Source of the DNA: Membranipora membranacea | Lineage: Eukaryota > Bryozoa > Gymnolaemata > Cheilostomatida > Membraniporidae | Direction: 5' to 3' | DNA: 64,000 bases | NCBI GenBank assembly: GCA_914767715.1 | Contig: OU612075.1 | Location: 8,494,001 to 8,558,000, forward strand | In this document: positions 324 through 42,460 of the stretch, piece after piece | Layout of the letters: every line of letters begins with the position of its first letter | Numbering within the stretch: position 1 is the stretch's first letter | Notes under the pieces: model-generated | Seen by the model: only the letters and a program-made list of their open reading frames with translations | Databases searched by the model: none | What the model was told of the DNA's origin: nothing | Program-made: the position numbers and the translations under genes

Positions 324-3300
324 CTTGTTTGCACTGACATGTGTAGTCAGTAGTACCACTGATACATTTCTTTGTATTTTCTGAGACACATGGGTCATCC
401 TTACAAAAGTCTACGACTTCAGTACAGTTCTGTCCAGTGAAACCAACAGGGCAAGTACACGAATATCCTCCCAACTTTACCTGGCAAGGAAAAATAACGG
501 AGATTGCAATTTATGGTTGCTTTTAGAATAACCTTCGATTTAACGATATGTTAATAGGCTAAAAGTTTTTAGAGCTGGAGGACCAGAATAAACTGAAAAA
601 ATACTTTCTAATTGCATGAACAGAAGTCACAGCCATTCATTTTTAATCATACTGTGTCTTTGGAGTTTGAGCCCATTTTTAGTGCAAACATATTATGATG
701 TTATTTCAATACAACTGTCTACATATTCAACATGTCAATCACTGTAGCACACTTACATGGCATCAGGTATCAGATAAACGGGTAACCTTGTAATTGGGAC
801 GAATTCTTTAGAAATGGCAACAAACTTAACTTTCTTAACAAAAAATTACCTCATTGAAGCAAGTACCATTATTTTGACACGGTTGATCTTTACAGTAATT
901 TATCTCCTTGTTACAGAGAAATCCTTCCCATCCCAGATCACAGTCACATCTAAACAACTGGTTCCTACAATACAAATTTTACATGTCCATGACGAAATGA
1001 TGCAATGAGAAGAAATAAATAATATATGTATATGTATATGTATATATATATATATGCATTATTGGGAAATTCATTTTGAGCTGATGTACTTTTCAGGACT
1101 AGCCTTCCAGAGCAATATGTTCATATTTGTATACAGTGTACAGCATACTTGCCAACCTGTACGCATAAAGCGTTTGTAAACGCTTATTTGACACTAATTG
1201 AGTTTTAAACGCAAAACGCTAGTTGTACTCATTTATGGTTTTCCAAACGCCTGTTCATCTAATTAGGCAATCAAAAACGCATCTTTTATCTTTAGTGTTT
1301 ACTTGGTTGTCATGGTTAAATAATAGTCTAAAAATCTGGTATTGGCTGCAGAAAACCATGATGTTGATTTACAGTTGACTTTTTACCTGTCCAAGTTTTG
1401 CATGAGCCAAATTGCAACTTTTCTTCAATGAGACACAACATAACTAGTAATCCATTGTAGAATATGGTGGTTCTGCCAACTTCAACTTTTCTTTAATCAG
1501 AGTAACAAAGTTGTCTACATCCTTGTTGGGGTGAGATAAATCAGATCTCCTGCCCCAGTGTTTCAAGGGCAAACCAGGGAGGATGGGCAAACATGTCACA
1601 TCATGAAAAACATTTGAAATAATGAATTGTTGCTGACAATAAAAGTATATATAAGTATATATATATATATAAACAGGGTTTCAAATAGCCTGTCTTGTCC
1701 AGACAGGCTAGGTTACAAACAACTTCTCATTTATTATTAGCAGATTGCACCTTACAACGCAAAGGGAAAAAGACTAATGTTGAGTGATCTGCACTCCTAT
1801 GCTACTAAGGACTACTTACTGTGATAATAGCATTTTTCGCGCGTAGCGCGAAAATTTTTTTGGGGCGTTTTCTGGTCATTAGAGGCACCCTGGAGTTTTG
1901 TACTCATTTTTAAGCATTTTGCAAATTTTTGTACTCATTTTGGAAAAATTAGGTTGGCAAGTCTGTGTACAGACTGAATATATGTATGGCCAATAACCAT
2001 TCAATGAACTATTTAGGCCGTATTTAAAAATTGTAAACTCAGCACACACAAGGGAGTCCAACTCGCATTGCATGAGTACTGTATAGTTCTATGACCTGTA
2101 CTATACATTTCTAAACAAGCATAAAAAGAGTGAAAGAAGCAACAGTAGGTAGGTTCAATTGGGATAGAAAGAGAGCAATGTAAAATGTTCTTCTAAACAA
2201 CAGCAGTTGATAAAGCAAATTTAAGTAATGAGGGGTGTGAAAATGTTACAGTCCTTTGTGGAGGTATGGATAAAGGTTACACACTTGTTTCTTACCGGCC
2301 ACCACCAGGTCCAATAAAATAGTTGAATCAGTTAAAGTCATAAAGTAGGTATTATTGGGCCGCCCGTGACAGAGTCTGTGTGTCCTCTAGAGAACTAAGA
2401 CTCAAAGAGTTTTTGTAACCTTTGCTAGCATACCCAAAACTGCACCATGCAGTGTTTGACTTATCAAATGATAACACTAAAAACAAAGAAATTTGTTCAA
2501 ACAAGTCATGCTTGAGCTGAGGGGTAAATAAGAAAAATACAATGCTTTCTTTTTTATACAACATGCAAGACCTTTCAGTGTACAAACAGAATGCCTGCAT
2601 GCTAAGAGCAGATGCATGCTAAGCTAGAAGCATTCTCTATACCAAATGAAAACCCCATTGAGAGAGCAGTTCAAATCATGTCAGAGAAACTAGACATGAT
2701 GGAGGCCAAACTTGACAAAGTCTCCTCACCCCCAGCTGATTATCGTCAGGCAGTAATGAGAAATATCCAACCACCGATTCCGCCTAAGTCAGCTTACACT
2801 GAACAAAGAAACCATTATCACCAATCTCTCCACCAACGAGAACAACCTCAACAGACACAACAACAGCAGCAACAGCAACAGCAACAACAGCAGCAACAAC
2901 AGCAGCAACAACAGCAGCAAAAGCAACAGCAGCAGCAACAAACACAACAACAACGTCAAGATCAGCGCCGTACACAACCACCAAAAAGTCAATATACTGA
3001 CAAATCTACCAATGAATTCGACCATGAAAAATGCTTTATAATACACAGTACAAAACAGGACTTCACGTCAATCAGTCAGGATGGCGCGAGAAAAGCAATC
3101 GGCAAATTAAACGGACCAACGATGATTGACTTTATCAAGCAATACAAGTTCAACTCGGCAGACCCTAAATTCATAATACAGATAACAAAACCTGAACAAG
3201 TAGATATAATAATAAAAAAATGGGAAGCTGAAGCACTTGAGGCTCATCAGCCAGACGACCCATTCAACCGAGCCAACATGTTGGCATCATCAAATATGTT

Positions 3301-6300
3301 CCTATTTACATAATCAATGAAGCCCTCCTACAAGAGGTCCAAACAGTATTCAAAGACGCTACAGTGTACCGTATGAGGACCAAAGATGGCACTAACCCTC
3401 TACGAACTGTAAAAGTAAACTTCAATGATGAAACACAGCTAGGAAATGCACTGGCAAACGGCATTACCTTTAATAAACATCAGCTTCTGTTTCGAGTAGA
3501 GAAACCGTACGTCTTCCCTCCCAGGACCTACAATGGCTAATCTAAGCGTAAGAAACCAAGCATCAATAAACTCGTCTAACATTTATGAACAAAGTCTCTG
3601 CTACCATAACCGCATATGGAATACTATTAGCTCCCTATCTGACATGAAGCCTGCATCCAGCAACAATTTGAGACTTCTACATCACAACGTAAGGTCATTA
3701 TATAAGAAGATGTTTTATTATGAAAGCCTCAATCTTTTTAAGTCAACCGACATTTTTTCTGTTTCTGAAACATGGCTCACTCCTGATATTCCAGATAGTC
3801 TTATTGACTTGCCTGGATTCTCAATAGCTAGATGTGACAGAAAATCTACAACCAAAACCCGGGGAGGTGGTGCTGCGCTCTTTGTAAAATCTTCATATAA
3901 ATTCTGTATAATAAGTCAATTAAGTGTTAAACTGTCCAAATTTTGTGACTCGGTTTGGATAAAAATACCTTCCACAAACAACCAACACGGTTACATCATC
4001 GGATCAATTTATCTTCCCCCTGATGCTAACAAAACCGAATTCATTACAATGATGAGCTCAATTCTACATCAAAACCAATATATTGGCCATAAATTTATAC
4101 TACTAGGAGATTTTAATATTAATTGGAATTCCTCATCAAACGAAAAAACACATTTAGAGCAGAGCTTCATGTCTGCAGGGCTATTACAGCAAGTTAATGG
4201 GATTTCATACATTAGCCATTTAGGGAGAGAAAACTTATTAGACCACAACTATGTGAACAGTGACGTTAGCGTTAATAGTTGCAAGATCCTGACACGATAG
4301 ACCAATTTCTGATCACTATGCCACATACTTAGTAATTAATCAACATCATGCTATAAAACAGCCACGCAAACTAATTAGAAGCAGAAATATTCACAGCATT
4401 AATCATGAGGAATTTTATAATGACTGTTCGAAACTTCCACTACTGCAAACAGCAACTGACATGAACAAATCATTGCATCACCGCATGGAAAATATTGAAA
4501 ACTTTATCTCTGACCTGATTGACAAGCATGCTCCAGTAAAAACAAAAAGAGTGCGAGGGGCTAAAAACCAGTGGCTTTTCCCTGATATTCAGCATCTCAT
4601 TAATTTAAGAAACAAATTACACAAGAGGGTATTCAAGGATACCTAATCCAGCTACAGCGCAAGTCAAACAGTACAACAAGTTTCGAAATTTTGTTACAAA
4701 TAAAATTAGGAATGCTAAGAAAGACTTTATAAATGACTCGTTATCTAAAGATGAAAAAAGTTTTTTCACCTGCCTGAAATCACTGACAGGAAAGAAGAAA
4801 TCCTCTGATCAAATCGAGAAAATTAGCTATCAAAACTCTACCTACACCTCAAACTCTGACAAGGCAAATGCCCTTAATAGATATTTCACCACGGTCGCTG
4901 GACAATCGGTTTTTATTCCTAAGATCGATCCACAACCTGACCTTTTCCATGGTCCAAGTTTCTCTTTCACATATGTTGAGAGCGAAACAATCTACAAACT
5001 GATGAAGTCCCTCAAACCAAACAAACGTGGTGGCTTGACCATGTTTCCAGCTTCCCTGTACCAAATTGTTGCAGACCTATTAGCTCTTCCCATAGCCCTG
5101 ATCATTAACGAATGATACAAGAAATCAATTTTCCCCGACTGCCTAAAAACAGCCCTGGTCACCCCACTCTTTAAGAAGGGCGATTAAACAGACCCTTGCA
5201 ATTACAGACCAATTTCCAGTCTGCCAATCATGTCAAAGGTGTTTGAGCTAGATATGAAAAATCAAATTATGACCTTTATCAAAACACATGGAATACTCTC
5301 AGATCGACAATTCGGTTTTAGTAAGCACCATTCCAGTGAACAGTTACTACTTTCTCTTTTACAAAATTGGAGAACAACGCTAGACAACCCTCAACCGAAT
5401 TTCATAAGTGCACTCTCTTTGGACGTACGTAAAGCATTTGACACTATAAATCATGGACAACTCATCCACACTCTAAAGCGACTAAATTTCGCAGAGTCAA
5501 CAACAAAATTATTTACATCCTAACCTTTCACATCGAACCCAAATCATGAAAGTTGATCATGATCAGTCCTGTGCACTACCGATTACATGTGGAGTACCCC
5601 AAGGAAGTGTTCTAGGTCCAATCTTATTCAATCTTGCTATCAATGATCTCCTTAACAAGCACAAAACTGCATTCGCCTACGCTGATGACACCGTTATTTA
5701 CTGCACAGCAACAGATATCCCTACCTTAATGGATAAATCTGAGTCATTGATGAGAGAAGTATCGAATTGGTATTCAAACAATCTCCTTCAACTCAACTTA
5801 TCCAAAACCCAATACTGTATTTTCTCAAATAGGAAAGTAGAAGATTTTTACCAAATCCAAATAAACAATTTGAAAATAGAATCCAAGCATTCGCTCAATC
5901 TTCTTGGAGTTATTCTTGATTCAGAGCTTAGTTTAACCCCTCAGGCTAATGCCACCGCCTCTAAAGCAAACAAAATGGTCTACTTGTTATAAAAACTAAA
6001 AAAATACATGACAGTAGAAAACTCATTGAAGACTTACAAATCACTGATCAGACCTATAGTAGAATACTGCTCATCATTGTACCTTGATGGTTTAGCCAAA
6101 AATTCAGATACATTAGAAAAAGTACAAAATAAAGCAATCAGAATCATAACTTCAGCCCCCAAACAATTTTCTGTCACATCTGGCCGCTTGCTCCTAAATT
6201 TATATACTCTCCACAGTAGAAGGAATTTTCTTTTTCACAATTTTGTCAAATCGAGGGTCCATAAAGGCCGTGCATCCAAGCACATACTTCATCTCGTTAG

Positions 6301-9263
6301 CAAATCAAACAGACATACACGATCACTTCACTTCGTAGCAACTGTGCAATAATTAAACCCTCATTTAGATCAAACCTAGGCAAATCAGCCTTTTTAAATA
6401 TTTTTCATACATTTGTAACTAAATCAACCAAGCCTCATGAATCATTATCATTTAATCCTACCTTATGCTGTTAACTTGTATTTTTGTTTGCCACTCTCTG
6501 TTTCTTCTTTTCTTTTTTCATCTTATTCATGCAATTTATGATACCATGCTTTCATTATCCTACACACTATATAGTATGTAACACCCTACCACTTATATCT
6601 TTTTATTCAAGTCATTTTTTGTATCTATGTTAATGTGTGTGAGGTCAACAAGTTATTTTTAATTTGCTTTAATTATAAACTTTTAGAAAACCTCAATAAA
6701 TAAATAAATAAATAGATAAATAATTTCAGTCAAGTGATAGGCCAATTTTCTCATTTATTTTTCGGAACTTTGATAGCTCCAAAATTCTTTCTGTTTAAGG
6801 CACGCCAGAACATCGACAGTATAACCTGTACTATTGCTTTCTAAACTAGCACATGAGCAGGATAAAAGAAGCAGCGGAAGGCAGGCACAAAAAAAAAGAT
6901 AGAAAGAGAGCAACACCTTATGATGTTTTTAACAAAGCCAGTAACCAATGTAAATTTGATTAATAAGGGAGGTGAAAATGTTGAATGCTTTGTGGCCACG
7001 CCCACCAGACTCATATTGAAGCAATTTTGATAGTGGATCTTTATCGTAGTTTTTGGAGTTTTGGTCAAACCCAAATAATTGATTTTTTTCTATTCATTCA
7101 TTGCCACACAGAGCAAGCTTTAGAGCAGATTTAAAATAGACAATACTTATCGCTGTCACTGCTGCATTTTAATAACCTAAATCAAGACAACCTTTTGATG
7201 CTGCCACAAGACTGCAATTATCAAATCGGCTTAACAGGGATGGGTAATAGAGGTATGACACTCATTTCTTACCGACTACTACCAGGTCTAAGAAAATAAT
7301 AACTGTCTCAAATGTATGGAAAGAGGTTTCTGGGGCCTTTGTTATTATACCCAAAACTGCACCATGCAGTGTTCGACTTACCGAATGATAACACTGAAAA
7401 CAAAAATATCTGTTCAAACATGTCATGCTGGAGCTATGAGGGATTGTGAGAATAAGATAAAATGCTTAACATATCATAAAACATGCAAGAGGGTTCATTT
7501 AACTAACCACAGCAAGCTTTTGTGGAAACGATTAACTGGTGTTTGAATGTCCGAAAAGCCATTCATAAGCTTTATTTTTTTAAATTTAGACAGCTCTTAC
7601 CATGCATATTTTACATGCAAATGAAGCATTTGTGACTATTTGCATCCAAAACAACAACACAGCTTTGGTGGAAGCATTCAAAACTTTCTGTTTGAGGAAA
7701 TAATGCAAAAGCCCTCACCCATTTTTCTTGGTTGGAAGTACATCTACGCATTTCCCGTTTTTACACAGGTTTCTTGTCGGGCAGATATAGTTCCTTGTCT
7801 CGCATTTACTTCCTTTCCAGCCTCTTTTGCAAATGCATTTGAAATCATTTCCGTCCAGGGGGAGACAAGCACCATTGTTGAGACATGGAGTAGAAGAGCA
7901 ACTATCCGTTTTCTACAACAGTTATCAAATTAGTGCCAGTCAGTTGAGATTTTACTTGTATAAGAACTTGGACAGGCATAATTTGATGCGTTTGTTTCAA
8001 TGCAGTTTGGAAAAAGCAGGGCAAGCTGGCATTTCAAGCTTTTTAAATCAGACATAAAATATTTCAGCATTCATCATTCAGGCACCAAGCAATGGATGCA
8101 TGGATGTTTAGTTGAAGGAGAGGAATTGTGACAAATTGTACAAAATCATTTGACAATGATCCAGTGTGCATCGAATTTACATAATATTAACAAGTTAGCA
8201 AATGAACAAAGTAATGATTTATCATTTATTTTTTCATGTGTAGCAAAATAAATGATAAAATGTAAAATGATCAAAATGTTTCAGAGTAAGCCACAAATAT
8301 ATAGAATGTAAGGAAGCCAAAGAGCTAAGCCAAGCAGACCTCATAGAAAAGGCAGGTTATGAGAAGGGAATAAGATCAAGATGCAGCTGACCAGAATGTA
8401 ACAAAATCAAGACCTTAGTTACCGTAATTGGACTTTGAGTTGAAACAGATACTGTTGCATCCCGCTTATGTCGGGACTGGCCAACCTATTAAAAATGTCC
8501 TGTATGTCTTAACAGTTGATAATGAGACCCGCAATAGGATCAATGTGTACAGAAGAATATGTACATAAACCACAAAACATGAGCCTATCACTGGACACAA
8601 ACTGTATCATCAACAGGATTCATCATAATAAGCGAGCTCCTTTATCTTGGTATAAATTGTACATTGAGATATAAAATTTAATTATGGTTGAATAGTTTCT
8701 AGACTTACTTGGGATGTTTGCACCTGAGCTGTGAAACCTCCAACCTACAAAGCAAAAAAAAACAGGGGAATGCAAGCAAAATTTCGCAAATTTGCCAACC
8801 GATTGTTGTATAAAACTTTCTTCAGATCATGAGTCCTGCAGCTACAAGGATTGATTTCCACACTCACCCAACAAATTTATTGAATAAGTTTTAGGTTCTA
8901 GGCTAACATCTTAGGAACTGTTTGGTCTGAATGGGATACATACCATTATCGCAGAATTATTGTTTCTTGATTGAGCACGATATTGGAACAAATAACAATT
9001 AAGTTGATTGCCGAAGGATTGAAAGTGATTGCTCTCTCCTACGAAGGAACTAGGTTTAGCCGAGGGCGAAAAAACAGGATTAGTGTACGCAGAGCTCTTT
9101 CTTTGATATATTATCTCCCCTTTTTTTACTCTGGAATCTTTTGAAGTAACTTTAAAAAGTTCACACCCTTACAACAAGTAAGGCAAATATAAATGATCAA
9201 ACTACTTACCATCAACACCAGAACAACACCTACTACCACACTTCCCCTCAGAACCTTCTCCAT
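324..9263 (-). CDS. Secreted multi-EGF-domain protein, 5' part (five exons, runs off left edge)
   Basis: Exons on the minus strand: 9263-9210, 8744-8709, 7912-7719, 964-850, 480-324. All have AG/GT borders (gtaagt, gtaagt, gtgagg, gtaatt, gtaaaa) and phases that close (0,0,2,0, then 1 leaving the window), giving 185 codons so far. The start MEKVLRGSVVVGVVLVLM plus exon 2 (VGGFTAQVQTSQ) reads as a signal peptide likely cut near FTA/Q. Three complete six-cysteine EGF modules follow: the first from CSSTPCLNNGAC, the second from CPTRNLCKNGKC, the third from CKDQPCQNNGTC; a fourth begins at CKDDPC. The EGF hallmarks CxC-x(4)-GW/F-xG-xxC are present in each. The product should be extracellular. Which EGF family protein it is cannot be told from the N-terminus alone. 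Introns hold a LINE and several repeats. Confident that it is real; function unknown. Confidence 0.85.
1670..1780. repeat. Dispersed repeat, copy 1 (second copy near 53590-53680)
   Basis: Shares the ordered blocks CAACTTCTCATT, ATTTATTA, TAGCAGATTGCACCTT and GGGAAAAAGAC with the copy inside the receptor gene intron 50 kb away. Also contains the small palindrome TAGCCTGTCTTGTCCAGACAGGCTA. Unclassified interspersed repeat. Confidence 0.6.
1826..1858. repeat. Short GC-core hairpin
   Basis: The core TTTTTCGCGCGTAGCGCGAAAA folds into a near-perfect stem (TTTTCGCGC / GCGCGAAAA) inside the fold-back element. The GC-rich core is unusual in this AT-rich DNA. Confidence 0.6.
2090..2600. repeat. Diverged duplicate of intron sequence, left copy
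   Basis: Ordered matches to 6822-7498: a GATAGAAAGAGAGCAA block, a GTGAAAATGTT block, TTTCTTACCG..ACCACCAGGTC, then ACCCAAAACTGCACCATGCAGTGTT, AATGATAACACT and ACATGCAAGA (long blocks quoted in part). The right copy carries about 200 extra bases in the middle. The LINE lies exactly between the two copies. Confidence 0.7.
2612..3540 (+). pseudogene. LINE ORF1 (polyQ, nucleic-acid-binding type), one frameshift
   Basis: Starts MHAKLEAFSIPNENPIERAV, with a predicted short coiled coil (EKLDMMEAKLDKV), then a glutamine run encoded by mixed CAA/CAG at about 2850-2960, then a C-terminal domain. The first frame stops at 3313, but the protein continues in another frame from about 3280 (KYVPIYIINEALLQEV ... 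PYVFPPRTYNG) to a stop at 3538-3540. So a single indel near 3280-3300 broke ORF1. The stop overlaps the ORF2 start (ATGGCTAA at 3533), the tight ORF1/ORF2 overlap seen in many LINEs. ORF1 proteins bind the element RNA; that role is from family knowledge. Confidence 0.75.
2850..2962 (+). repeat. CAA/CAG trinucleotide tract encoding polyglutamine
   Basis: Imperfect CAA/CAG array inside LINE ORF1. Because CAA interrupts CAG frequently, it is a coding homopolymer rather than a pure microsatellite. Its antisense frames give spurious Leu/Val runs. Confidence 0.85.
3533..6352 (+). pseudogene. LINE ORF2 (endonuclease plus reverse transcriptase), multiply disrupted
   Basis: The endonuclease part (3533-4300) shows LLHHNVRSLYKKM, VSETWLTPDIPDS, the Gly-rich RGGGAALFVK, and LLGDFNINW, the APE-type catalytic blocks. 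A frame change after 4280 leads to a linker (DKHAPVKTKRVRGAKNQWL near 4520-4580). RT motifs follow: LVTPLFKKGD then a stop at 5185, NYRPISSLPIMSKVFE, SLDVRKAFDTINH, GVPQGSVLGPILFNLAINDL and AYADDTVIY (the YADD active site). Breaks occur near 4285, 4645, 5115, 5185, 5521 and 5990. Reverse transcription of the element RNA at a nicked target is the family role. This copy cannot make a full protein. Confidence 0.85.
6353..6725 (+). other. LINE 3' untranslated region and tail
   Basis: AT-rich non-coding part ending AGAAAACCTCAATAAATA followed by repeated AAAT units. The same end sequence appears as a truncated copy near 35345-35412. Confidence 0.7.
6822..7498. repeat. Diverged duplicate of intron sequence, right copy
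   Basis: Partner of 2090-2600 (see that entry) in direct orientation, lying just after the LINE. The pair may be an old tandem duplication of intron DNA into which the LINE inserted at or near the junction. Confidence 0.7.
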
Positions 9264-10917: not shown

Positions 10918-11392
10918 CTACTTCTTTTTACCGATGACTGCACCGACTGCTGCGGAGATAACGGGCCCTTTAACTGCATCTACAGTTCTGCTGACGATTC
11001 TTCTAAATCTAAGGCTTCTTCTCCTCCATGCGTTGACTGAGAAACAGTAAGAAAATTACACGGTAAGTACAAGTGTATTTGTGCAACACAAAATGAAAGC
11101 GCTTCACCTTGGAGTGACTTACTGATGAAAATATATGCCTTTTCTTTAGGTTTAAATGGTGCGAAACTTAAACAAATAACAATACTAGTTCTGCTTGCCA
11201 ATTTATGTCTACAACTTTTTTCTATCATCTTTTTTCAGTAAGATTCAGAAAACTGAACGATATTAGAGTTTTTCCGAACCCCTGCACCTGCTTACACGTT
11301 TTATTTATTCTCAATAAAACGCTAAGTAACTTACCATCAAGAGTCAAAGCAGAAATCACAAAGATCACCAGGAGTACATGGAGAAGTCTCAT
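10918..11392 (-). CDS. Secreted cationic antimicrobial-like peptide precursor, long form (58 aa)
   Basis: Two exons: 11392-11335 and 11036-10918, with donor gtaagt, acceptor tttctcag and phase 1/2 closing. Exon 1 is almost entirely signal peptide (MRLLHVLLVIFVISALTLD); cleavage is likely after the VNA at the exon junction. The 36-residue mature region starts WRRRSLRFRRIVSRTVDAV and continues KGPVISAAVGAVIGKKK. It has an N-terminal Trp, an Arg-rich amphipathic half, a Lys-Gly-Pro hinge, a hydrophobic Ala/Val/Ile half, and a terminal Gly followed by three Lys. Gly plus basic residues is the classic C-terminal amidation signal. Net charge is about +10 before trimming. The plan resembles cecropin-type membrane-lytic peptides, inferred from layout only. 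A paralogue lies inverted at 15449-15953. Confidence 0.8.
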
Positions 11393-11432
11393 CTTGTGTG
11401 AATAGGTATGTTTATATAGAGGCTGAAAATAC
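11393..11432 (-). promoter_or_regulatory. Conserved 5' leader and splice-acceptor-like site of peptide gene
   Basis: Reading on the minus strand, TATTTTCAG is followed by CCTCTATATAAACATACC and the ATG 30 nt after the AG. The plus-strand paralogue has the same TTTTCAG/CCTCTATA arrangement with ATG 35 nt after. The TATA-like string lies too close to the ATG to be a normal TATA box with a leader, so an acceptor for a 5' UTR intron or for spliced-leader trans-splicing is more likely. Confidence 0.5.
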
Positions 11433-11527
11433 AGAAAATATAGAAAATAGAGTAAATATAGAAAATAAAGAAAATATAGAAAATAAAGAAAATATAGAAA
11501 ATATAGACAATATAGATATAGATATAA
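11425..11527. repeat. Purine-rich tandem array (GAAAATATA / GAAAATAAA units)
   Basis: About ten units of roughly 9-10 bp in plus orientation. On the minus strand it is a pyrimidine-rich TATTTTC array immediately before the acceptor-like leader of the peptide gene. Open frames across it are artefacts. Confidence 0.8.
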
Positions 11528-13059
11528 AACCACAGCACAGATAACTCGTTATAAAAACATGATAATAAAAGTGCTGCCAAATTGCTCTTACAAAGAAAGG
11601 ATAAGGAATCATATTAAGTTACAATATAAAATCCTTCCAAAAACCTCACTTTATCACAATCAAGCATTCTATATGCAACATATGCCATAAAGAAAATGTT
11701 TGTTATGATAAAAAGAAAGTGACACTTTTAAACGATTGATAGCGTTTAGATGACCATTAGTTTCCTTACCAGTCTGCTAGTTGTTGTCTGCGGCTTGGTT
11801 TGGGAACCGATGATTCAATCAAATGAAAAGCTCAACTTTTATACTGCCAATATGATTGCGACGGCTGTATTGAGAACGGACAGCTGGTGGTGTAGCCTCA
11901 TGCCTATTCTGTAACAATTCTACCCTGAAGAAGAGAAATATTCATTAAACCCTCACCCACTGACCCCCAGATATAGGGCTCAAGGAAATTCTGACAGGTT
12001 TGTTTACATAATTTAGGGTCCAGCTAAGATCACAAGAGCCAAGGGGCGCCCATGGCAGTTTCTCCAATCCATCAATTACCAAATTGTTATTTTATTTTGT
12101 AATTTACTATTGCTGACAGGGAAAACAGGCTGTTTTGACAGGGCCAGTACCAGGGTTCACTCCTGTTTCAGATTTTGGGCCATTTTTGAGGAGAGTAGTC
12201 TGACAGTTACCCCAGAGTGGCAGAATTTGTGACATTCGTGACACTGGTGACTCTGTGCTGGCTACTCATAACATTAGGGTATGATTTACCATAAAGTGTA
12301 TATTCATCTGGAAGCTCTTAATTCTTACGCGAGAACTCAGCCAATCATTGTGGAGAGCTTTGCCGTGTTTGGAAGAATAAACCATGACATGAACAAAGCT
12401 CCGAATTTGAAAAAAATTGGGAGAGCTATATGGTTGCAAAAAAGCATCTTAGTTTGTGTTTTGGTTACTGTCGTTGATCCAAAACTGACGGTTTTATTGA
12501 AAATAGTGGCTGGAGGACTAAATCACAACTTCAAACACACGCATGTTATAACTGTTTGAGTGGAGCGGGTAGGTGAAAACGAGAACGGGTTGGATATCAG
12601 GTATATCTGAAAAGTATTATATCGAAAATCATGTAGCTGGGATTACCAAGTGGTAAGATTTAGGACTGCTGATCAAGGTGAGCTGAGCGGCACAATGTAA
12701 TTGGATATTAACAAAGCTAACTACCGATCTGATCCGCATCTAATAACTGGGAGAAATGCCCTTTCCGACCAGTAAAGATCTAACGCTTGTTCTATCTCTA
12801 GTTTGCAGCAGCAATCAGCCTTCATAATGTTATAGATGTTATCACCACACATTCACAAAACATGCCGTGGTTGTGTTAGTTGCAAACATTTTCAATTAGC
12901 AATTAAAAGACCGGTAACGTAGTAACATTTTGGAGACACGTATAATCATTTTTTTGTTTTCTATTCAGTGCTCAATCCATCGGTGAGTGAAATTGCTGCG
13001 CTTTTCACCTTCAACTGTGGCTAAGCCAATCTCAGCATATTATTGCCATTGCCATTGCA

Positions 13060-13120
13060 TGTCATAAGTAACTGTCTGACTATAACATGCATTGGTATTT
13101 GGGTAGTCTTTAGGGCCAGT
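13060..13120. mobile_element. Fold-back element family A, fragment
   Basis: Contains AAGTAACTG, CTGACTATAACATGCATTGG and GGGTAGTCTTTA, the right end of the full copies at 16983-17275 and 23067-23386. The left half is missing. Confidence 0.7.
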
Positions 13121-13671
13121 ATATAATTATGAGTACAGAATTCTAAACATTCTCCTGAATCTTTAATCCATTTTGTCACAAGATTGTATACTAACAAGTT
13201 GCTACGGACAGAAAACACCAACACATTACCTGAAGCTCAAGTAAGAATATTTTATAATCTTTACCTTGAAACATAACTACAAGAGGTCGTGATACAGGAC
13301 ATATTCTCTGGGAAAAACCAGAAGTTTTTAGCATCAAGATTGTTTACTAGGACAACTAATGAACAAATGAAACGCAATTTCTTTGGCACATTACGAATAA
13401 CATCCGTCTAGGATGATATTGTCTGTCAAATAAAATAGTGTATATATTATATATTATCATGTTATCTGACACGCACGGCGTCAGTGACCGATGCACGGTG
13501 ATAACATTGAGGAACTTTTAACATAATATCCAAAGTTCATGAATGTTTATTACTCCCTAAGCAGTGATGATTCATGACATGCATGTGTTATTAAAATCTT
13601 GATTAACCTTGAGAATTTCCAAACAACAAACCTTGGCCTAACAAAAGTCCCTAAAATAATAGTAATCTCTT

Positions 13672-14142
13672 GCAAAGACACAAACCTGGGCTGTGACTGG
13701 ATAATTTTCTAATCATCTATTTGTCATATTTTGAATTTGGAACTTTATTGACTCGCTTTTCAGGCACTACAGTTGCCAAATATGACGGGTCCGGCCGTGA
13801 AGTTAGAATTCAAGCAACAACACCCGATTAGCGTATTTTCACTGTTGACGTTACGTTATTCGTGGAGAAGAACATATAACAACTTTCAATTTGAGGATTA
13901 AAGCTCGATAACCAAGTACGATAGTAATCCAATGAATTTTTTGTTTAAACTCTTTAGTCTTTGACTGTTGCAAAGACACAAACCATGTGGCTGGATAATT
14001 TTCTAATCATCTATTTGTCAAATTTTGGAGCATTATTCGCTTGGTTTTCAAGTACCAGTTTTCCAATATGACAAATCAGGCCATGAAGTGAGAATTCAAG
14101 CAACAACGCCCGATAAACATATTTCTACTGTTGGCGTTACTT
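13672..14142. repeat. Diverged direct duplication, two units of about 175 bp
   Basis: Units at 13672-13853 and 13969-14142 share GCAAAGACACAAACC, GGATAATTTTCTAATCATCT, ATTTGTCA, GAATTCAAGCAACAAC and CCCGAT in order. They are separated by a block related to 10775-10830. No coding signal. Confidence 0.75.
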
Positions 14143-14545
14143 GTCCCTTGCAACAATAATTATTTGCAACAGTAAATATTTTTATAATTATTTTTGCGCA
14201 TATATTTACTATTTTTTTCGTTTCTTTTTGTTCATGGTAACAAGTTGTTATTTTCTTTTCTACATGACCTCAAAAAATGCGTAATAATATTAGTGGCAGC
14301 AGGAGTAAACACGTCTGTTGTCTAATCAAGACAACTTGTTCAGCCTAGAGAGCAATAGCTGCTGTAAATGAAAAGAAAACTATTTTATTGTTGATAAAAT
14401 GGAGATATTGTTCTTGACTCGTCAGTTCTTCCCCTCTAGTGCATAAGTCATTGACATCATCTGTTATTGTGATATTGGTAGTATTCCGATAGCTGCACAT
14501 TTCATGTATCGTTTATCACTTTAATATGACAATATTTGTGCATTT

Positions 14546-14655
14546 ATCAAGTTTGATCAAGTTTGCCTTGCATCTGCACCCCTTTCACTCCACTGAAAAA
14601 TCGGAGGGTGAAAGTTTACCCCTTTGCCTGAACTGGATCAAACTTGATCTAGTAT
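14546..14655. mobile_element. Palindromic element family C, copy 1
   Basis: The ends GATCAAGTTTG and CAAACTTGATC are inverted about a Gly-rich middle. Related copies lie at 26559-26668, 31338-31458 and, decayed, 62572-62632. Confidence 0.6.
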
Positions 14656-15136
14656 AGCCATAACCATTAGGCTTGCCCTAGCCTGCCTATCAATGACAAT
14701 CTGAATCTGTAACCACAAATGCTTGACTGCGATCTCTACCATGTCCCGAAGTGGGTAATCAGAATATCCTTGAGCCATATATCTGGGAGTCAATTGGGGA
14801 GGGTGCCATGCACATTACCTAAGGTCTTTGTAAGATATTCTCAGCCCATGGAATAAGGCTAACCCATCTGCCTGTTCACAAAATGAGTGTCGCAAACAGA
14901 TTACAGTTTTGAAGATCGTAAACTGGGACAACGCCGGCAGTAGATAAGCCGAGCTTTCCATTTAGCTTAATCATTGGTAAGCAGACCTACAAAAGAGAAA
15001 AACTATCCAACAGGTAAGGAAACCCTTCATTCTTTTCATTCTAATCCTCCTGAAGTGCAGTTTATTTAGGTACTGTTGATCATTCAGCATAGCCTTGTTG
15101 TGCGGCCTCGTGAAGCGTAATGCAGCCAGGCACTGA

Positions 15137-15206
15137 TATATATTCACAGATATATATACACTGATATATATTCACTGATATATATGCACTGATATATATT
15201 CATATA
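15137..15206. repeat. Short tandem repeat, CACTGATATATATT unit
   Basis: About five imperfect copies of a 14-20 bp AT-rich unit, upstream of the plus-strand peptide gene. Confidence 0.75.
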
Positions 15207-15275
15207 AATGCAGCCAGGTTTTCAGAAGGCTTTATACTGTAACTTAATGTACAGGCAATGTGGTAGCTTTTTTGG

Positions 15276-15365
15276 GTAGCCAATGTGTTGGCTCCGATAT
15301 AATTGGCTGGTGGGTGGGAAAATATTTCCCACCCACCAGCCAATCAGAGCCAACACATTGGCTAC
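15276..15365. mobile_element. Palindromic CCAAT-bearing element family B, best copy
   Basis: A 90-bp near-perfect hairpin: GTAGCCAATGTGTTGGCTC ... GGTGGGTGGGAAA then the exact reverse. Each arm contains CCAAT/ATTGG cores. It ends 83 bp before the ATG of the plus-strand peptide gene. Related copies: 23616-23875, 24644-24716, 35451-35520, 38145-38202. Confidence 0.75.
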
Positions 15366-15404
15366 TTTTTAGGGTACACTGGTTATTTATATTGTGATCT
15401 TCTT

Positions 15405-15448
15405 TGTTTTCAGCCTCTATAAAACAGACCTATTATAAATAAATCAAG
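15405..15448 (+). promoter_or_regulatory. Conserved 5' leader and acceptor-like site of peptide gene, plus copy
   Basis: TTTGTTTTCAG ends at 15413, followed by CCTCTATAAAACAGACC and the ATG at 15449. It matches the mirrored site of the minus-strand gene while more distal sequence does not. The TATA-like word starts only 31 bp before the ATG, which argues against a standard TATA box. Confidence 0.5.
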
Positions 15449-15953
15449 ATGAGACTTCTCCATGTACTCCTGGTGATCTTTGTGATTTCTGCTTTGACTC
15501 TTGATGGTAAGTAATTTTATCGAGAATCTGTAAGCAGTGTTTAGCAAAGATCGAATATCTTACGTTTTCTTAATCCTACTACAAAAACTTAGCCTTGGAC
15601 ACAGAAATTAATTATTTCACTAAGGTCAAGAAACAAGGGTGACAGTTCAACAAATGTCAAATATCTTTGGCTCACATACCTGTAAAAAAACTTACCGAAA
15701 GTTCAAGCTCCAGACAAAATTTGCAGGCAGAACTGGCATAAGTAGTTGATTAGGGGTACATGAGTTACACGGTAGGAAAAATCGTCCATCTTTTTGAATG
15801 AATCATTCAAAGTAGTTAGATCCAATTTTTGTACTTTGTACTGTGTATTTTTCTTACTGTTTCTCAGTAAACGCATGGAGGAGAAGAAGCTTAAGATTTA
15901 GAAGAATTGCCAGCAGAACTGTAGTCGGTACAGTCATCGGTAAAAAGAAGTAG
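15449..15953 (+). CDS. Secreted cationic antimicrobial-like peptide precursor, short form (46 aa)
   Basis: Exons 15449-15506 and 15868-15953, with donor gtaagt, acceptor tttctcag and phase 1/2. The signal peptide is identical in amino acids to the minus-strand paralogue. The mature part begins WRRRSLRFRRIASRTV and ends VGTVIGKKK. Compared with the long form, an exact 33-base, 11-residue block (DAVKGPVISAA) is absent. It covers the Gly-Pro hinge and half of the hydrophobic helix, but the reading frame and the GKKK amidation signal are kept. The first exon is conserved base for base apart from its flanks, so the duplication is fairly recent or under constraint. AATAAA occurs at 15971 and 16012. 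Likely secreted defence peptide; activity not shown by sequence. Confidence 0.78.
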
Positions 15954-23200: not shown

Positions 23201-26200
23201 TTATGGCATCATAATGCAGAGAATGAGAGTTACCTTCCCTTATGGGAGGCACTCTTTACACCATCAATAACTCATACCAAGAAGAGCATCAAACTTTTAC
23301 CATGCGAATCTGAAATGACATAGGTATAACATTAGCATGAGTAACTGCCTGACTATAACATGCATTGATCTTTGGTCAGTCTTTAACATAAGAATGACAC
23401 ACAGACAGAAAACAGCATACTGTGGACGAGCATACATTTTATTCGGAAATAAGTTCACTTGCATTTTTCAATAGCTTAAGACAGTGATGAACATCGAGGT
23501 GTGGCCTACTCACTTTGTTAGAAGACTAGACCAGAATTTCATAGACACAGCTGGTGCTAAGGCTAGGGCCTTCTCCCACTACAGGACAAACAGACAAAAT
23601 TAATGAGCTATATTAGGGGTAGCCATTATGTGTCGGCTCTGGTCTGATTGGCTGTTGGATGGGAAAGAGAGCCAATGAAATTATCCATCGAGGTATAGTG
23701 AAAGTGAAACTAAATTCCTTTCCTCTATACAATATCAATGGGTTCTTTCAAAAATGTACCATCTGGTCTGGCATTGGCTCTCTCCCTCCCACCAGCCAAC
23801 CAGAGCCAACACATTGGCTACATTAAAGGCCATCTCCCTCCCACCAGCCAATCAGAGCCAACACATGAGCTATATTATGGTTTAGCTTCAGACACAGATT
23901 AGAACATAGACAGGGGAAAATAGTTACAATGAAAGGTTTAGAGAAATAAAATCGGTATTTCTAGTCTATATGAGGACACTGCAGGTCTGGCATTGTGCCA
24001 TATTAACCACTAAGGAATTAACCTTGAACTCCCATAGAGAGTGAAAAAATGCTCTAGTTGTATAAACTATCTGGGTCTATAGGGTCTGCAAGAGAAGTTC
24101 ACACATTCACAATTACATAAATTATACCTGCTCATTTTCCACCATAAGTTGACAGTATTTCTGAATATTTCCGAGTTTTAGATAGAGATCTGCAGCTTTC
24201 TTCAATTTATCTTGTCGAGAAGGGGCACCTATTTGACCGCCCGCAGATGTGTGTCTAGCCATATCCAACTCAGCAGCCTCAGACTAAATTAAACACAAGT
24301 ACACAAGCTTGCATGGTAAATCACCTGTCAGGGCCGTAAATTAGAAAAAATATTGGGGGAGGCGAAAAAACTTTGAGGGTGTGAAGTGACCCCAGGTTGG
24401 ATGTGTAAGCCCCTTCTGTGGAGTCTGGGGTTAGTGCCCAGCCTCCAAACTGTTTTTTAAGATATATGAATGGCAAATGGAAGTCCCAAATTCTGACATG
24501 GAATTATAGCATTTTTAGGCCACACTATTGAGCATTGTAGGGGAGGCATTGTAGCATTGTAGTCCCTGCCTCCCCTAGAACTATGGGCCTGCCTGTATCC
24601 ATGACGCATCCTGGTGGTGAGGTTTTATAAACACACTCTTAAACTAGCCAAGTTGTTGGCTGTGATTGGTAAAGTGGAGTGAAGCCAAACAATCAGAGTC
24701 AACACATTGACTACTTCAAGACAATCTCTCGAATTTCAGGGTAATCTATGAATAAATAACCTTATACAGCAAAACAGCAGGTAATAATGCAATCTGTACT
24801 GGCCAGGGGCAAGATTTTTTTTGGTGGGGGGAGTGCATATATTGCTCTGGGTTTTGACAAAATATAAATATTTGTTTTCTCATTGCTTTAGGTGGTTGAT
24901 TATTTCCATATTCATAATATATGTATATATATATATATATCTTATGTAGATTAGTGTTCACATTGACATTTCAGAGCCAGGGTTAACATGTATTTATATT
25001 TCTTACCTGCTTATATCGTGTTAGGTCTTTGACATGAACAATCCCTTTCCCATAATCCTCTGATAAACTGCTCTGTGGTTTATTAGTCGCGACTTTTATA
25101 AGATCCAGTAGGTTATTCACTCCAATATGATACTGCAAAAAAATAAGAAATGATCTCGTGTAGTCATCTAAGCGGCACAGTACAATGCAACTGTCCCCAT
25201 TGCATTAAAGGTAAATAATAAAAAGGCAACTACAAATGATTAAACTCTACCTCAGCTAACCTACTAGCTATCATTAAGTCGTCCAATAACGAGCTGAACC
25301 AGATTCACGCTAAATTGTACATTTCTAAGGGAACATATTTCCTTTAAAAGGACGACATACCTGGAACATCTTGTGTATAGCGAGCACCATTTCTTTGTTG
25401 CTGAGTTGATCTTTGTTTAGTTTAGAGGAAGCTGAACCACAGAGTAAAGACGGAGACTTCTCTACCATGGCCACTTCTACAGGGAGGCAAAAAAAAACAA
25501 TAATCTTAGCAAAAACAGGATGAGACTTAAACCTTGTAGGGCATTTAATTATCAGTGGGACACAATCGAAACCCTGATTTGCTATACATCAATTCAAGTT
25601 CACAAAGGATAGTTTGATAAAATATTTTAGGAGTCCATATTAAGGTTATGGGGCCAGCTTGATTATTATCTATGCTCAACTTTGTAACAGGAGTAGTCAC
25701 TTTCAAAGTTTTCTAGATATTTTCTAGATGATGTCTAGATGTTGTCTAAATGTTGTCTAGATCTTTTCTAGATGTCGAGAAGAAACACTGACTAGTATTA
25801 GTAAGTCACATATCAGAAGCACAAAAGTATGTCAGTAGAGCAAAGCATGAAGCCAAATAGGCTGGTTCTATCAAGGACTCCTTGGTTCTATGAAGCAAAG
25901 CGCAAATAATGCAAAATTAAATAAAACTTGTGCTGTAATCTACACGTAAAGTGAGAAAGGTGAACACAGAATAAAAATCTATCATTATTTTGTCTATGGG
26001 TGAACATAAAACCTAATTAGTATGGTTGTTAATATACGACAGTGCACTCATATTATTTAAATGTTAAAGGAACCATTTCTTTTTTTTAATTATTCTGCTA
26101 AAAGGACGGATACAAAAGAATGCTAAGAATTTTAAGGAAAGAAATAAAATATATAGAATAAAAAGCATGGAAACAGTTAGATAGTCCAGGGACTAGAGCG

Positions 26201-29200
26201 ACAGCTGTCCACTTTCCTGCCAAAAGGCACCAGGACGCATAATTATTACTTTGCTTCAACCATTTAAATTTTTAATTCTTGGTGAATTTTGAAGTTGAGT
26301 GCACAGTTGTACGACTAGTACATAAAACATCGTCAGATCATTAGTTTCAAGAAAGTGAGGTGTGTCATTCTTACCAAATTTGTTCATATTTTGGTTCGAA
26401 TCTGTAGCAAAAATGCAAGCTTGAGATGGACATGACTCGGAAATCTGTTCAATGCATGAAACTCGTACAAGTTTCAAATCCTAGACTTGATATTGGCCTT
26501 CTATACAATTGACAATCAATGTTCATTATAAAATAAGATCTTACAGCAATGCCATTAGACCAAGTATGATCCAATTTGCCTGCATTTCGGGCCGTTACCA
26601 TTCTACTGGTGAGCCCCATGTGGAAGCAACTCCAAAAGCAGGCATATTGGATCAAAGTTGATCATTGTGTCTTGTCTTATGAAGGTTAGGGTAGCGACCA
26701 TACTCTCCAGATAACAGGTGATTTGACAGTTATAGTTCTCAAAAAGACCTGGAAAATGTTGACTAGTACTGATATAACAACTCTTCCAACTGTCAGTGTT
26801 GTGATTATGACAGTACTGTTGTCTGAATTTGAGACATGGGTGATTTGTGAGAGTTGTCGGTTAACGTTGTTCTGAATATTGTGGGTAGGAGAAGCCAGGG
26901 TAAATCCCGCAAAACGAGAGGGGAATTGAACCCTCTAGCTCATATGGACAATAATGTGAAAACTTACCTGGAGTTGCAAACACTCTCTCTTTGGGACAAT
27001 CCATCATAGCTTTCACCGGTAGAAGTGACGCGACGTGATATGTAGACCAGATTCTTACAGTAGAATCCCTACTTGAAGACGCAAGAGTGAAAGGTCGGGA
27101 CGGGTGTATGGATAAACCTGTAAATACATAGAGGTTTGTTCTTGGGTACTGAGGCCTGAAAATACTAATAACTTCAGTCATAGCTTATGAGCCAAAGAAG
27201 CTTTAACACATAAAAAAGAACTCCGAGCATACAGGTAATTTGACAATGAAAATCTTCAAAAGGCAATGACATATATTAACCTCTACAACAGCTGATTGCA
27301 TAAAGAAACACAAATACGGTGATGGTAGATATAACAAACTCTAAACTCATAACTCTATATTGTCGAACATTGGATACACGAAAGTGTATTAGTGAAGAGT
27401 TCTAAGTACAGATGAGACTTATAGATATTTTATCACTTACCATAAACATCACCTCCATGATCCTTGAGAACAGCTAGTCTAGCACCACATCTTACATCCC
27501 ACATGATGATAGTATAGTCCCAGCTACCAGTGTACAGCAGGTAAACTAACTCAGGGCTCCAGCATAGTCCTCTCACATGTGATGTGTGACCTTTTAATAC
27601 CTGCTGCGTGCTGTCACTAGATTCACCACTGTAGTTCCAAACTCGGACTGTCCTATCAGATAATAGTTAACAAAACATGGTCAGGCTTTATGAAAAAACT
27701 TCTCTAGATCTAGACTCCACCTGCTCTCCTGTATAGGTGAAATACTAATCAAGCTGATTGAGACAAAACTTCTGCTTTCACCATGTGGGGTTGATTCATT
27801 TGCGGTCAAGTAGACATTTTCTGAGCACAAATTTTAGCTTCTGTTTATTTTGCTACGATGTGTGCCCTATATATCTGAAAAGGGAAACTCCATCAATAGG
27901 CTCAAATTTGACATCAGAAAACTGTCTATACACAAGGGTGGCATTAACAGACTACCATTGAGGTATTTCTGAGCGTCACCCCGAGACCATTGTTGTGGTT
28001 TGCGAATGAAATCATGAACAGTTTTGTTTTGGAACAACACCGAGTAGGCTTTTATCTTGGGCATCTACTGTACCATGGGAGAACAGAATAAATGGTCAAA
28101 TTTATGATGCATATATGATAATGTACGAGGATATCATGTGTTGGCGTATTGCCCCAGAGAAGAAAGGACGACATATTAGCCTTTTCGAACATGTGTGAAA
28201 TACTGTAATCTAGATAACATTTACTCACCTTCTTCATACATGCATGCATTTGTACGTATGTATGTACGTGCATGTACATACATACATGCATTTGTACGTA
28301 TGTATGTACGTGCATGTACATACATACATACATACAAGCATTTGTACGTATGTATGTACGTGCATGCACATACATACATACACGCATTTGTATGTATGTA
28401 CATACATGCATGTACATACATACATACATGCATTTGTACGTATGTACGTACGTGCATGTATGTACATACATACATGCATACATACATACATACACGCATT
28501 TGTATGTATGTACATACATGCATGTACATACATACATACATGCATTTGTACGTATGTACGTACGTGCATGTATGTACATACATACATGCATACATACATA
28601 CATACATACTGGTGCTAGCTAACATTAACTACCGTAACTGAGCTCTAGCTAATATTTATTCTCCTAGAGCGTGGTTAAACACTTACGTATCATCACTGCC
28701 GCTAGCCAGGAATCCTTCTCTTAGAGGTGACCAGTGGATATGGAACACTTTACTTGTGTGTCCACTGAATAGCCTTAGAGGCTGTGACACTATCTTCACA
28801 CCATGATTGGAGGAGGGTAAACTGAACACCCGTATGTTGTGATCATCGGAACAAGTTGCAAGCATCGACCTGCATTGACAGAAAATAAGAACATAGATGG
28901 ATTTATTCTTTTCTTTACTGACAATTATGTCTTGGCTCTCAATTCATTTGGTTTTTTTTTCTTTATGTTTTTATTCCTAATTGAAAGCATTCATCTAGAT
29001 AATTACGACAGGCAATAAAAGGAATTTGATAACAAATGCAATCGGTTGTGAGAGGGCAACCCATTGTGTTAAGATTCTGTCAGTGACTGATGCAAGAAGC
29101 CAAATAATGAACTATTTAAAGTTTTTCCACTGAAGTACAGACAAAATGTCCGCCCTCATAGAACAATTGAATGCAGGAGAGCCAACATATTGGCTTAAGT

Positions 29201-35200: not shown

Positions 35201-36108
35201 TCTGATTCCAGCCAGAGCAAACATATCCCTTGATATAAGCATATATCCTGATTTATATATGATTAAAACAGATATCCTGATTTAAGCATATAGATTTAAG
35301 AATAATATATCCCCTGATTTGAGGAGTCTAGCTTGCAATTCAGTGTAGTGCAGGTCATCAAGGTACTTTTCAACAACTAACTAACTAACTTCCAGAAAAC
35401 CTCAATAAATACAACAGAGACAGATGAATTGCTGATTTGAACTTGTTCGTGCAGCTAACCAATGAGGTGGCTCTGATTGGTTAGCTGCACTAATCAGAGC
35501 CAAGTCATTAGCTACGTGCAGCCTCCTTACCTGAGCAACTAGAGCTTGTTGCTGTATATTCCAGATAACGATGGATTTATCTACACTTGTAGTACATATG
35601 ATATCTTCATCTGTCGGGTGCCAGGCTAGCGATGTGATCCCTCTTCTGTGCTCAGCTACTATAGAGTGAAGTGTGAACTGGTCTGTGACAGGACTTCTCT
35701 GTAACAAAATAATAGAGGTATCCGTGTTCAGATTACAACTGTGGTAGTTGGAATTTCTACATATTTATCAACTCTTCTAATGATGTACCCACTGTCTTCA
35801 AAGTTCAGCAATAGATGACATCAAACAATTACAATATACATGTATGTTGGGAGTTGGTCTGCAACTTTCACTGATATGTAGCCATATATCAAAGGCCCCT
35901 TCAAGATAAGGCTACTGTGATATGAGAAAAACAATCCGATATTTACCTCATAAATATATACAGATAGTGTAGCACAGTATGCACATCTTTGTCCTGATGC
36001 AGCAACAACTTGGAAATTCCACGGCTGGCATCCTGCAGATAGGAGACTAAGCTGTACTGGAGCATCCATGACACCGACAGGTCCCGTCTCATTTGTTTTA
36101 CAGTTCAA
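17293..36108 (-). CDS. WDR17: WD repeat-containing protein 17, complete (27 exons)
   Basis: Exons: 36108-35947, 35698-35531, 34709-34618, 34146-33995, 33504-33336, 32699-32524, 32133-31934, 31281-31162, 30734-30591, 29971-29886, 29460-29374, 28869-28687, 27652-27441, 27117-26968, 25476-25361, 25132-25007, 24283-24128, 23578-23514, 23020-22796, 22533-22428, 22016-21880, 20995-20887, 20434-20311, 19580-19481, 18911-18714, 18244-18091, 17430-17293. All phases close. The product is 1284 aa, or 1271 aa from the second in-frame ATG (36069), which aligns better with the vertebrate start. The N-terminal half (to about residue 690) is WD40 repeats (LSAGCQPWNFQVVAASGQR, FFDGGVGLYDLQ, FEHPAAVHGCDW, SGSDDTTVRVW, IHPSRPFTLASSSRDSTVR). 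The rest is TPR-like helices (LYLKLGNIQKYCQLM, WEKALALAP, YPVLAACCYLSNDM), ending ISLSEAIMWATVNPFSP. This is a WD40-plus-TPR scaffold like IFT-A proteins; cellular role poorly known. No minus-strand AATAAA was seen within about 900 bp after the stop. Confidence 0.95.
17809..17886. repeat. Imperfect hairpin
   Basis: GCTAGCCTGTCTTAACAAGC pairs with the region ending CAAGCCAGGCTAGG. An inner GGGGG / CCCCC pair flanks TTTT. Lies in the last WDR17 introns; probably another fold-back element. Confidence 0.55.
19092..19143. repeat. Perfect 23-bp-arm hairpin
   Basis: ATTAATCTCCACAATAATTG and its exact reverse complement flank a short AT-rich loop, in a WDR17 intron. No internal gene. Confidence 0.75.
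21151..21362. mobile_element. MITE-like family D, copy 1
   Basis: Left end GGCCCGTAGTTCTAGGGGAG; right end, read inverted, GGCCGTAGTTTAGAAG with AGGGGAGGC inside. An extra GGGAGGCACTGCCTCCC palindrome lies near the left end. A second copy is at 24331-24589. Confidence 0.7.
23067..23386. mobile_element. Fold-back element family A, full copy 2 (320 bp)
   Basis: Same TTAAAGACTACCC start and AGTCTTTAA end as copy 1, with long inverted arms. It starts 47 bp upstream (minus sense) of the WDR17 exon at 23020-22796, close to its acceptor. Confidence 0.8.
23616..23875. mobile_element. Family B palindromic elements, composite copy
   Basis: A left arm (GTAGCCATTATGTGTCGGCT) and two right arms in tandem (CCAGCCAACCAGAGCCAACA... 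and CCAGCCAATCAGAGCCAACA...). The right-arm duplication suggests unequal exchange or slippage. Confidence 0.65.
24331..24589. mobile_element. MITE-like family D, copy 2
   Basis: GGGCCGTAAATTAGAA plus GGGGGAGGC at the left and GCCTCCCCTAGAACTATGGG at the right, inverted relative to each other. Confidence 0.65.
24644..24716. mobile_element. Family B palindromic element, small copy
   Basis: CTAGCCAAGTTGTTGGCTGT at the left and AATCAGAGTCAACACATTGA at the right. Same arms as 15276-15365 with a shorter, altered centre. Confidence 0.6.
25705..25777. repeat. Tandem repeat, TTTTCTAGATG/TTGTCTAGATG unit
   Basis: About six copies of an 11-12 bp unit rich in TCTAGA, in a WDR17 intron. Confidence 0.7.
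26559..26668. mobile_element. Palindromic element family C, copy 2
   Basis: AGACCAAGTATGATCCAATT at the left and AGCAGGCATATTGGATCAAA at the right are inverted, with GGAAGCAACTCC inside. Confidence 0.6.
28233..28611. repeat. TACA/TGTA-rich minisatellite, higher-order palindromic array
   Basis: Units of CATTTGTACGTATGTACGT and CATGTACATACATACATG alternate, so both strands are open in nearly every frame. The large His/Tyr/Cys open frames here are artefacts. Lies in the WDR17 intron between exons 12 and 13. The array can extrude as hairpins. Confidence 0.9.
29256..29311. mobile_element. Family E fragment
   Basis: CCACTACCGGCAACGTTAGC then GAGCACTTAAACT match one end of 32332-32445 and 16575-16696 in inverted sense. 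Confidence 0.45.
31338..31458. mobile_element. Palindromic element family C, copy 3 (best preserved)
   Basis: CTAGACCAAGTTTGATCCAG at the left and CCAGATCAAACTTGATCTAG at the right. The inner part GAGTTGCTC / GAGCAACTC and CATTGATAA / TTATCAATG is also inverted. Confidence 0.75.
32332..32445. mobile_element. Palindromic element family E, copy 2
   Basis: AGTGCTTGAACTCTGCCAGG at the left; at the right CACTGGCAGAGTTTGGCAAG. Inner TCATCAACCAC / GTTGATAATGG pair as in copy 1. Confidence 0.6.
35345..35412 (+). mobile_element. Extremely truncated LINE 3' end, same family as 2600-6725
   Basis: Aligns with the last 70 bases of the LINE: AGGTCAtCAAGgTA... and the identical AGAAAACCTCAATAAATA. The tail is short. 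Shows the LINE family has mobilised elsewhere in this genome. Confidence 0.65.
35451..35520. mobile_element. Family B palindromic element next to WDR17 exon 2
   Basis: GCAGCTAACCAATGAGGTGG ... AATCAGAGCCAAGTCATTAG with GGCTCTGATTGG in the middle. It ends about 10 bp from the exon 2 donor. Confidence 0.6.
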
Positions 36109-42212: not shown

Positions 42213-42460
42213 AATTCATGAACCGAAATGGTGTGACCTATAGAATTCGAGTGTATTAATATAGTTTTCTTCACATCAGATACATTATTTATCACATCTT
42301 TTTCTGCTGTTGACCAACAATTTGAGGTAAAGCAAAAAAGATGTCATTGGACAAGTTTTTAGCAAGTGAAATATTGATCAATCAACTAAAAGTCAATAAG
42401 TTCAATTCATCATTTTCGTGCGCCTTTTCTCTGTTTCTATTGGGTAAAACTAACTCAACC

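Follow-up and report, generated by a model that had tools for sequence, protein, structure and literature searches.

Bryozoans are known chiefly for small-molecule defences. Here we describe two small genes of the bryozoan Membranipora membranacea that probably encode secreted cationic peptides. They lie in a 64,000-nucleotide stretch of contig OU612075.1 (assembly GCA_914767715.1, positions 8,494,001 to 8,558,000 of the forward strand; hereafter the window) and are arranged divergently, gene 1 at 10918-11392 (-) and gene 2 at 15449-15953 (+), with their ATG codons about 4.06 kb apart. An original prediction, made from the letters of the window, had proposed two inverted two-exon genes with a common signal peptide, and spliced frames, splice sites and stop codons are indeed present in both copies. 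Exon 1 of gene 1 (11335-11392 (-)) carries the ATG, MRLLHVLLVIFVISALTLD and the first base of a Val codon ahead of a GTAAGT donor; a 298-nt intron (11037-11334 (-), GTAAGT...TTTCTCAG) separates it from exon 2 (10918-11036 (-)), which reads VNA-WRRRSLRFRRIVSRTVDAVKGPVISAAVGAVIGKKK-stop. In gene 2, exon 1 (15449-15506 (+)) encodes the same signal peptide and is identical to its counterpart at 58/58 positions, followed by a 361-nt intron (15507-15867 (+), GTAAGT...TTTCTCAG) and exon 2 (15868-15953 (+)), which reads VNA-WRRRSLRFRRIASRTVVGTVIGKKK-stop. Both introns run GTAAGT...CTGTTTCTCAG and interrupt the frame in identical phase.

The product of gene 1 is a precursor of 58 amino acids, consisting of the leader MRLLHVLLVIFVISALTLDVNA followed by WRRRSLRFRRIVSRTVDAVKGPVISAAVGAVIG-KKK (the long form). 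Gene 2 encodes 47 amino acids, with the same leader followed by WRRRSLRFRRIASRTVVGTVIG-KKK (the short form), and is shorter by 33 nt, in frame. The leader MRLLHVLLVIFVISALTLDVNA opens with a basic segment, continues into a hydrophobic core and places V-N-A just ahead of a Trp, an arrangement that fits the -3/-1 rule of signal peptidase. Read by eye, it is probably a 22-residue signal peptide cleaved after Val-Asn-Ala, leaving Trp as the first mature residue. The signal peptide given in the original prediction is thus probably three residues too short (...LTLD|VNA), the intron lying within the Val codon. Ahead of the terminal GKKK, each mature part has a net charge of +7; neither contains a cysteine, and both end in the amidation-type order of Gly followed by basic residues. 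The traits of the linear cationic antimicrobial class, namely a signal-like start (judged by eye), positive charge, lack of cysteine and short length, are therefore present in both precursors.

The start of gene 2 is fixed by an in-frame TAA that begins nine bases 5' of the ATG. For gene 1, no in-frame stop was found in the 60 bases 5' of the ATG, where a simple repeat sits; an array of a 9-base unit (GAAAATATA-like, 11416-11525) lies directly 5' of the gene, and the upstream frame is open by accident. A 45-nt conserved stretch adjoins each ATG on its 5' side, at 11393-11437 (-) in gene 1 (TTTTCAG and CTATATAAA) and at 15404-15448 (+) in gene 2 (TTTTCAG and CTATAAAA), with 34/39 aligned bases identical. 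Common to both stretches is TTTTCAGCCTCTATA(TA)AAAC, and the CAG ends 30 nt (gene 1) or 35 nt (gene 2) before the ATG. The element may be a TATA box, in which case the leader would be very short, or else the 3' acceptor site of an intron in the 5' untranslated region or of a spliced leader. On the 3' side, AATAAA follows the stop codon at 79 nt in gene 1 and at 18 and 59 nt in gene 2. Directly 5' of gene 2 is a palindromic hairpin element (15276-15365) resembling a miniature inverted-repeat transposable element, pieces of which recur at 23617-23872, at 24641-24716 and in two other stretches (L003 and L010).

The two copies are clearly duplicates in inverted orientation, with inverted arms spanning 86 nt (92% identity) and 73 nt (97%). 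The copies have not diverged evenly. Exon 2 is identical at 80/86 positions apart from the single in-frame 33-nt length difference, so that the exons differ at 6/144 sites compared with 58/249 aligned sites in the introns (Fisher p = 1.6e-7), a contrast that is conservative because gap placement in the alignment favours the intron. Without its ends, the intron aligns at 155/212 positions (73%, versus 73% for shuffled sequence). The whole intron reaches 77%, compared with 72% for shuffled sequence and a shuffle maximum of 77%, and its final 30 nt are identical at 27 positions. The farther 5' flank (84/112) and the first 120 nt of the 3' flank (69/87) both stay within the shuffle maximum. Exons have thus been kept while introns drifted, and the gene pair is therefore probably real. 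Within exon 2, four of the six changes are silent and two alter an amino acid, which suggests selection on the peptide itself.

The pair appears to stand alone. A search of the whole 339,339,785-base genome for the shared signal exon, a check proposed with the original prediction, returned genes 1 and 2 as its only two candidates, and all four matches of a protein search of the same genome at E ≤ 10 are the four exons. No other copies were found in 284 kb (the window and 110 kb on either side); a weak exon-1-like stretch in the flanking DNA (L013) was dropped, with no Met in place. Among 5.8 billion proteins, the search for relatives (two candidates) gave none at E ≤ 10. This protein set includes at least one bryozoan protein, because a Bugula neritina query matched a protein named for that species at 95% identity. 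Tiny genes split by introns are often overlooked in annotation. Sub-threshold Pfam matches (DUF6708 at 13.6 and 16.5 bits versus a cut-off of 27; Polysacc_synt_3 at 13.7 versus 23) and a PDB match to a phage lysis protein (E 0.91) were judged chance similarities of the hydrophobic leader. Three stretches of the letters had no match in the full text of the open-licence literature, and no bryozoan antimicrobial peptide is reported in the titles listed there for bryozoa together with antimicrobial peptide or cecropin. Within the protein, Pfam, PDB and literature searches, the description of the genes as undescribed holds. The main text of a 2025 review of marine invertebrate antimicrobial peptides does not contain the word bryozoa (PMC12466427), and a 2023 lophotrochozoan survey lists bryozoa among the 15 phyla searched, its 390 antimicrobial peptides from 113 species possibly including bryozoan entries (PMC10414684).

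The long form has two unlike halves. Its first 19 residues have a helical hydrophobic moment of 0.50, reached by 3.25% of shuffles, and its hydrophobic tail is neutral. The short form lacks 11 residues, KGP among them, and has no hinge; its moment is 0.20, which 54% of shuffles reach. The proposed Arg-rich amphipathic half is thus borne out in the long form and does not hold for the short one. From the single sequence of the long peptide, AlphaFold2 gave, as the best of five models, a helix over residues 5-34 (mean predicted local distance difference test score 69.8, predicted template modelling score 0.25), the other four models scoring 66.0-56.2.

We favour the reading that genes 1 and 2 are a lineage-restricted orphan pair of paralogous peptide genes, probably antimicrobial, and put its probability at roughly 55%. 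The original prediction is upheld in its general form, that of a head-to-head duplicate pair of genes for secreted-looking cationic peptides in a non-insect invertebrate. The pair would be real and probably functional, its peptides secreted and cationic; the antimicrobial role is likely but unproven. By composition, the best reading of the products is a linear cationic membrane-active peptide, and the functional class is a familiar one, not a new kind of peptide.

For the working of the system we propose that an inverted duplication gave rise to the two paralogous genes, each of which would encode a signal peptide followed directly by the active cationic peptide and Gly-Lys-Lys-Lys, with no acidic pro-piece. 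The peptide would be secreted or stored in granules, a carboxypeptidase would trim the lysines, and the exposed Gly would be converted to a C-terminal amide. The Trp/Arg-rich N-terminal half (net +7) could then bind anionic bacterial surfaces. In the long form, the amphipathic helix together with the hydrophobic C-terminal half would insert into and permeabilise the membrane. The short form still has its cationic head and an end of the amide type, and should bind rather than insert well because the 11 residues including KGP are missing; it may be less potent, have a different target or act as a partner peptide. Transcription, cleavage, amidation and antimicrobial action of both peptides are what we infer. 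Should the peptides be produced and prove lethal to microbes, bryozoans would have a gene-encoded defence.

Several observations weigh against this reading. No relative was found, so conservation can be compared between the two copies only, and the contrast between exons and introns could also have come from local gene conversion of the exons. Taken by itself, exon 2 shows no significant amino-acid bias, with 2160 of 10000 neutral placements giving as few amino-acid changes. An ATG exon of signal-like sequence followed by a GTAAGT donor is not unusual in itself: the window has four on its two strands, a count that should include these two. Taken whole, the long peptide is not amphipathic as one helix (moment 0.22, reached by 25.5% of shuffles), nor is the whole short peptide as an alpha-helix. 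The top moments instead fall at strand-like angles, 0.34 at 140 degrees for the long form and 0.43 at 145 degrees for the short. The low-confidence AlphaFold2 model of the long form, which has the KGP, is one unbroken helix with no hinge. The furin- or dibasic-like RFRR motif and the RRR run could also be cut, breaking the peptide.

Such cutting is the core of one alternative, in which the genes encode neuropeptide or hormone precursors and prohormone convertases cleave at RRR and RFRR to release IVSRTVDAVKGPVISAAVGAVI-amide from the long form and IASRTVVGTVI-amide from the short. The dibasic and furin-like sites and the amidation-type GKKK end, found in both peptides, agree with this. However, each precursor would hold a single peptide in only 47-58 residues, the SLRF piece between the basic sites lacks a Gly for amidation, the two putative released peptides differ much in length, and a comparison by eye with the 11 precursors that PMC4990251 tables for Bugula neritina showed nothing similar. 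We regard this alternative as unlikely. An equally unlikely one is another secreted cationic role, in adhesion, in binding to cuticle or mineral, or in protecting the surface from predators or settlers by cytolysis instead of acting as an antibiotic. It would suit secreted-looking, cationic products without relatives in a sessile and colonial host, but the peptides are very short and not acidic, with no repeats and no cysteine, and nothing supports such a role specifically. Slightly less likely still is that the locus is non-functional, either a duplicated stretch with frames open by accident or a real gene with its short copy a decaying pseudogene. The chance origin of signal-like exons and the non-significant amino-acid bias both leave room for this, whereas the retention of exons and splice edges against drifted introns, the identity of exon 1 and a sole coding length change that is a multiple of three argue against it.

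Least likely is a true homologue of the insect or nematode cecropins: the long form shows their overall plan, but we consider homology very improbable because profile, signatures and alignment all lack signal, the intron sits elsewhere, and the homology of insect cecropins with non-insect ones is itself denied by some authors, as PMC6929098 reports. The original prediction had left deep homology as one option. A profile search of both proteins against Pfam Cecropin (PF00272), a check likewise proposed with it and run with HMMER filters on, gave no match at E ≤ 10. Neither of two cecropin signatures given in PMC6929098, one for dipterans and lepidopterans and a wider one with mosquitoes and nematodes, matches either peptide exactly; at best the long form fits 10/19, 12/18 and 13/19 positions, as about 28-31% of shuffles also do, the range being about 28-32% when the short peptide is included. 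Against cecropin P1, the one member compared, local alignment scores 17 for the long form versus a shuffle mean of 19.2, and 12 versus 17.5 for the short. The split of a signal exon from a mature exon, cited as a cecropin trait, does not hold in Anopheles gambiae cecropin D, whose exon 1 is described as encoding the signal peptide and the first 10 mature residues (PMC11554196). In the bryozoan genes, by contrast with that one published gene, the intron interrupts the probable signal peptide ahead of VNA.

What does remain is a resemblance of plan. Like the cecropins of insects and cecropin P1 of Ascaris, the bryozoan genes encode a short precursor in which a signal peptide precedes a linear cationic peptide free of cysteine, and the long copy adds a Trp near the N-terminal end, a basic and then a hydrophobic half, Gly-Pro within KGP, and an amidation-type end. 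The short copy, being hingeless, departs from this plan, and the bryozoan peptides are Arg-based, whereas cecropins are Lys-based. Since the resemblance is confined to the long copy, the claim is stronger when framed as convergence; it is possible that the long copy works like a cecropin, but its being one is not supported. A bolder version of our preferred reading, which we advance tentatively and at clearly less than even odds, is that the phylum Bryozoa here has its first family of gene-encoded antimicrobial peptides, arisen within the lineage and reaching the cecropin plan by convergence, with a full hinge-and-anchor copy and a hingeless, head-only partner or non-lytic variant. Provided that they are made and kill microbes, the peptides would also offer a test case for an orphan peptide without relatives arriving at the cecropin plan, and two natural copies set apart chiefly by the hinge segment would provide a built-in comparison of structure and function.

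The remainder of the window holds features of other kinds. Remains of a non-LTR (long terminal repeat) retrotransposon lie at 2606-6352 (+), one frame of which matches RVT_1 (E 6e-11, above the cut-off). A WD40 protein exon at 35402-35764 (-) has the THOC3 propeller as its best match (E 1.7e-9), this fragment falling below the family cut-off. A long simple-repeat stretch at 28052-28641 has several frames open on both strands. Frames at 42326-53485 (+) look by eye like exons of a large gene for a secreted protein or a receptor; sub-threshold EGF matches occur at 52325-52723, in only one of the three frames scanned from that region. The window contains no tRNA or Rfam matches. Elsewhere in the genome, a 14,741-base mitochondrial contig has frames that, from their translations under code 5, resemble COX1, COX2, ND1, ND4 and ND5.

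Among known systems, the linear cationic alpha-helical peptides of the ascidian Ciona (Ci-MAM, KH.C1.640 and KH.C7.94; PMC7387483) come from a marine invertebrate too, and share short secreted precursors and a Trp/Arg-rich, cysteine-free composition. In the assays described there, all five of the Ciona peptides tested had minimal inhibitory concentrations of <3.1-6.25 uM against E. coli, and three of the five inhibited it in 500 mM NaCl. It is by analogy with these peptides that a membrane-active defence role may be suggested for the bryozoan pair. By alignment to 21 of the 22 tabled helices (one row with a duplicate helix was omitted), the nearest are KH.C7.94 (score reached by 3.7% of shuffles), KH.C1.640 (5%) and KH.S908.1 (5.7%), a similarity that is not significant after 21 tests. 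The precursors also differ: in 17 of the 22 Ciona candidates the cationic part is followed on its C-terminal side by an acidic helical pro-piece (PMC7387483), whereas the bryozoan precursors, unlike these linear cationic antimicrobial peptide (LCAMP) families, end at GKKK-stop without one, and the two conserved Ciona leaders (MDRK... and MNKS...) look by eye unlike the bryozoan leader. The styelins and botryllin of styelid ascidians are likewise described as cecropin-like cationic helical peptides (PMC9966394), botryllin differing by its description in having a precursor of 158 amino acids, with a signal peptide of 23 and a mature part of 37.

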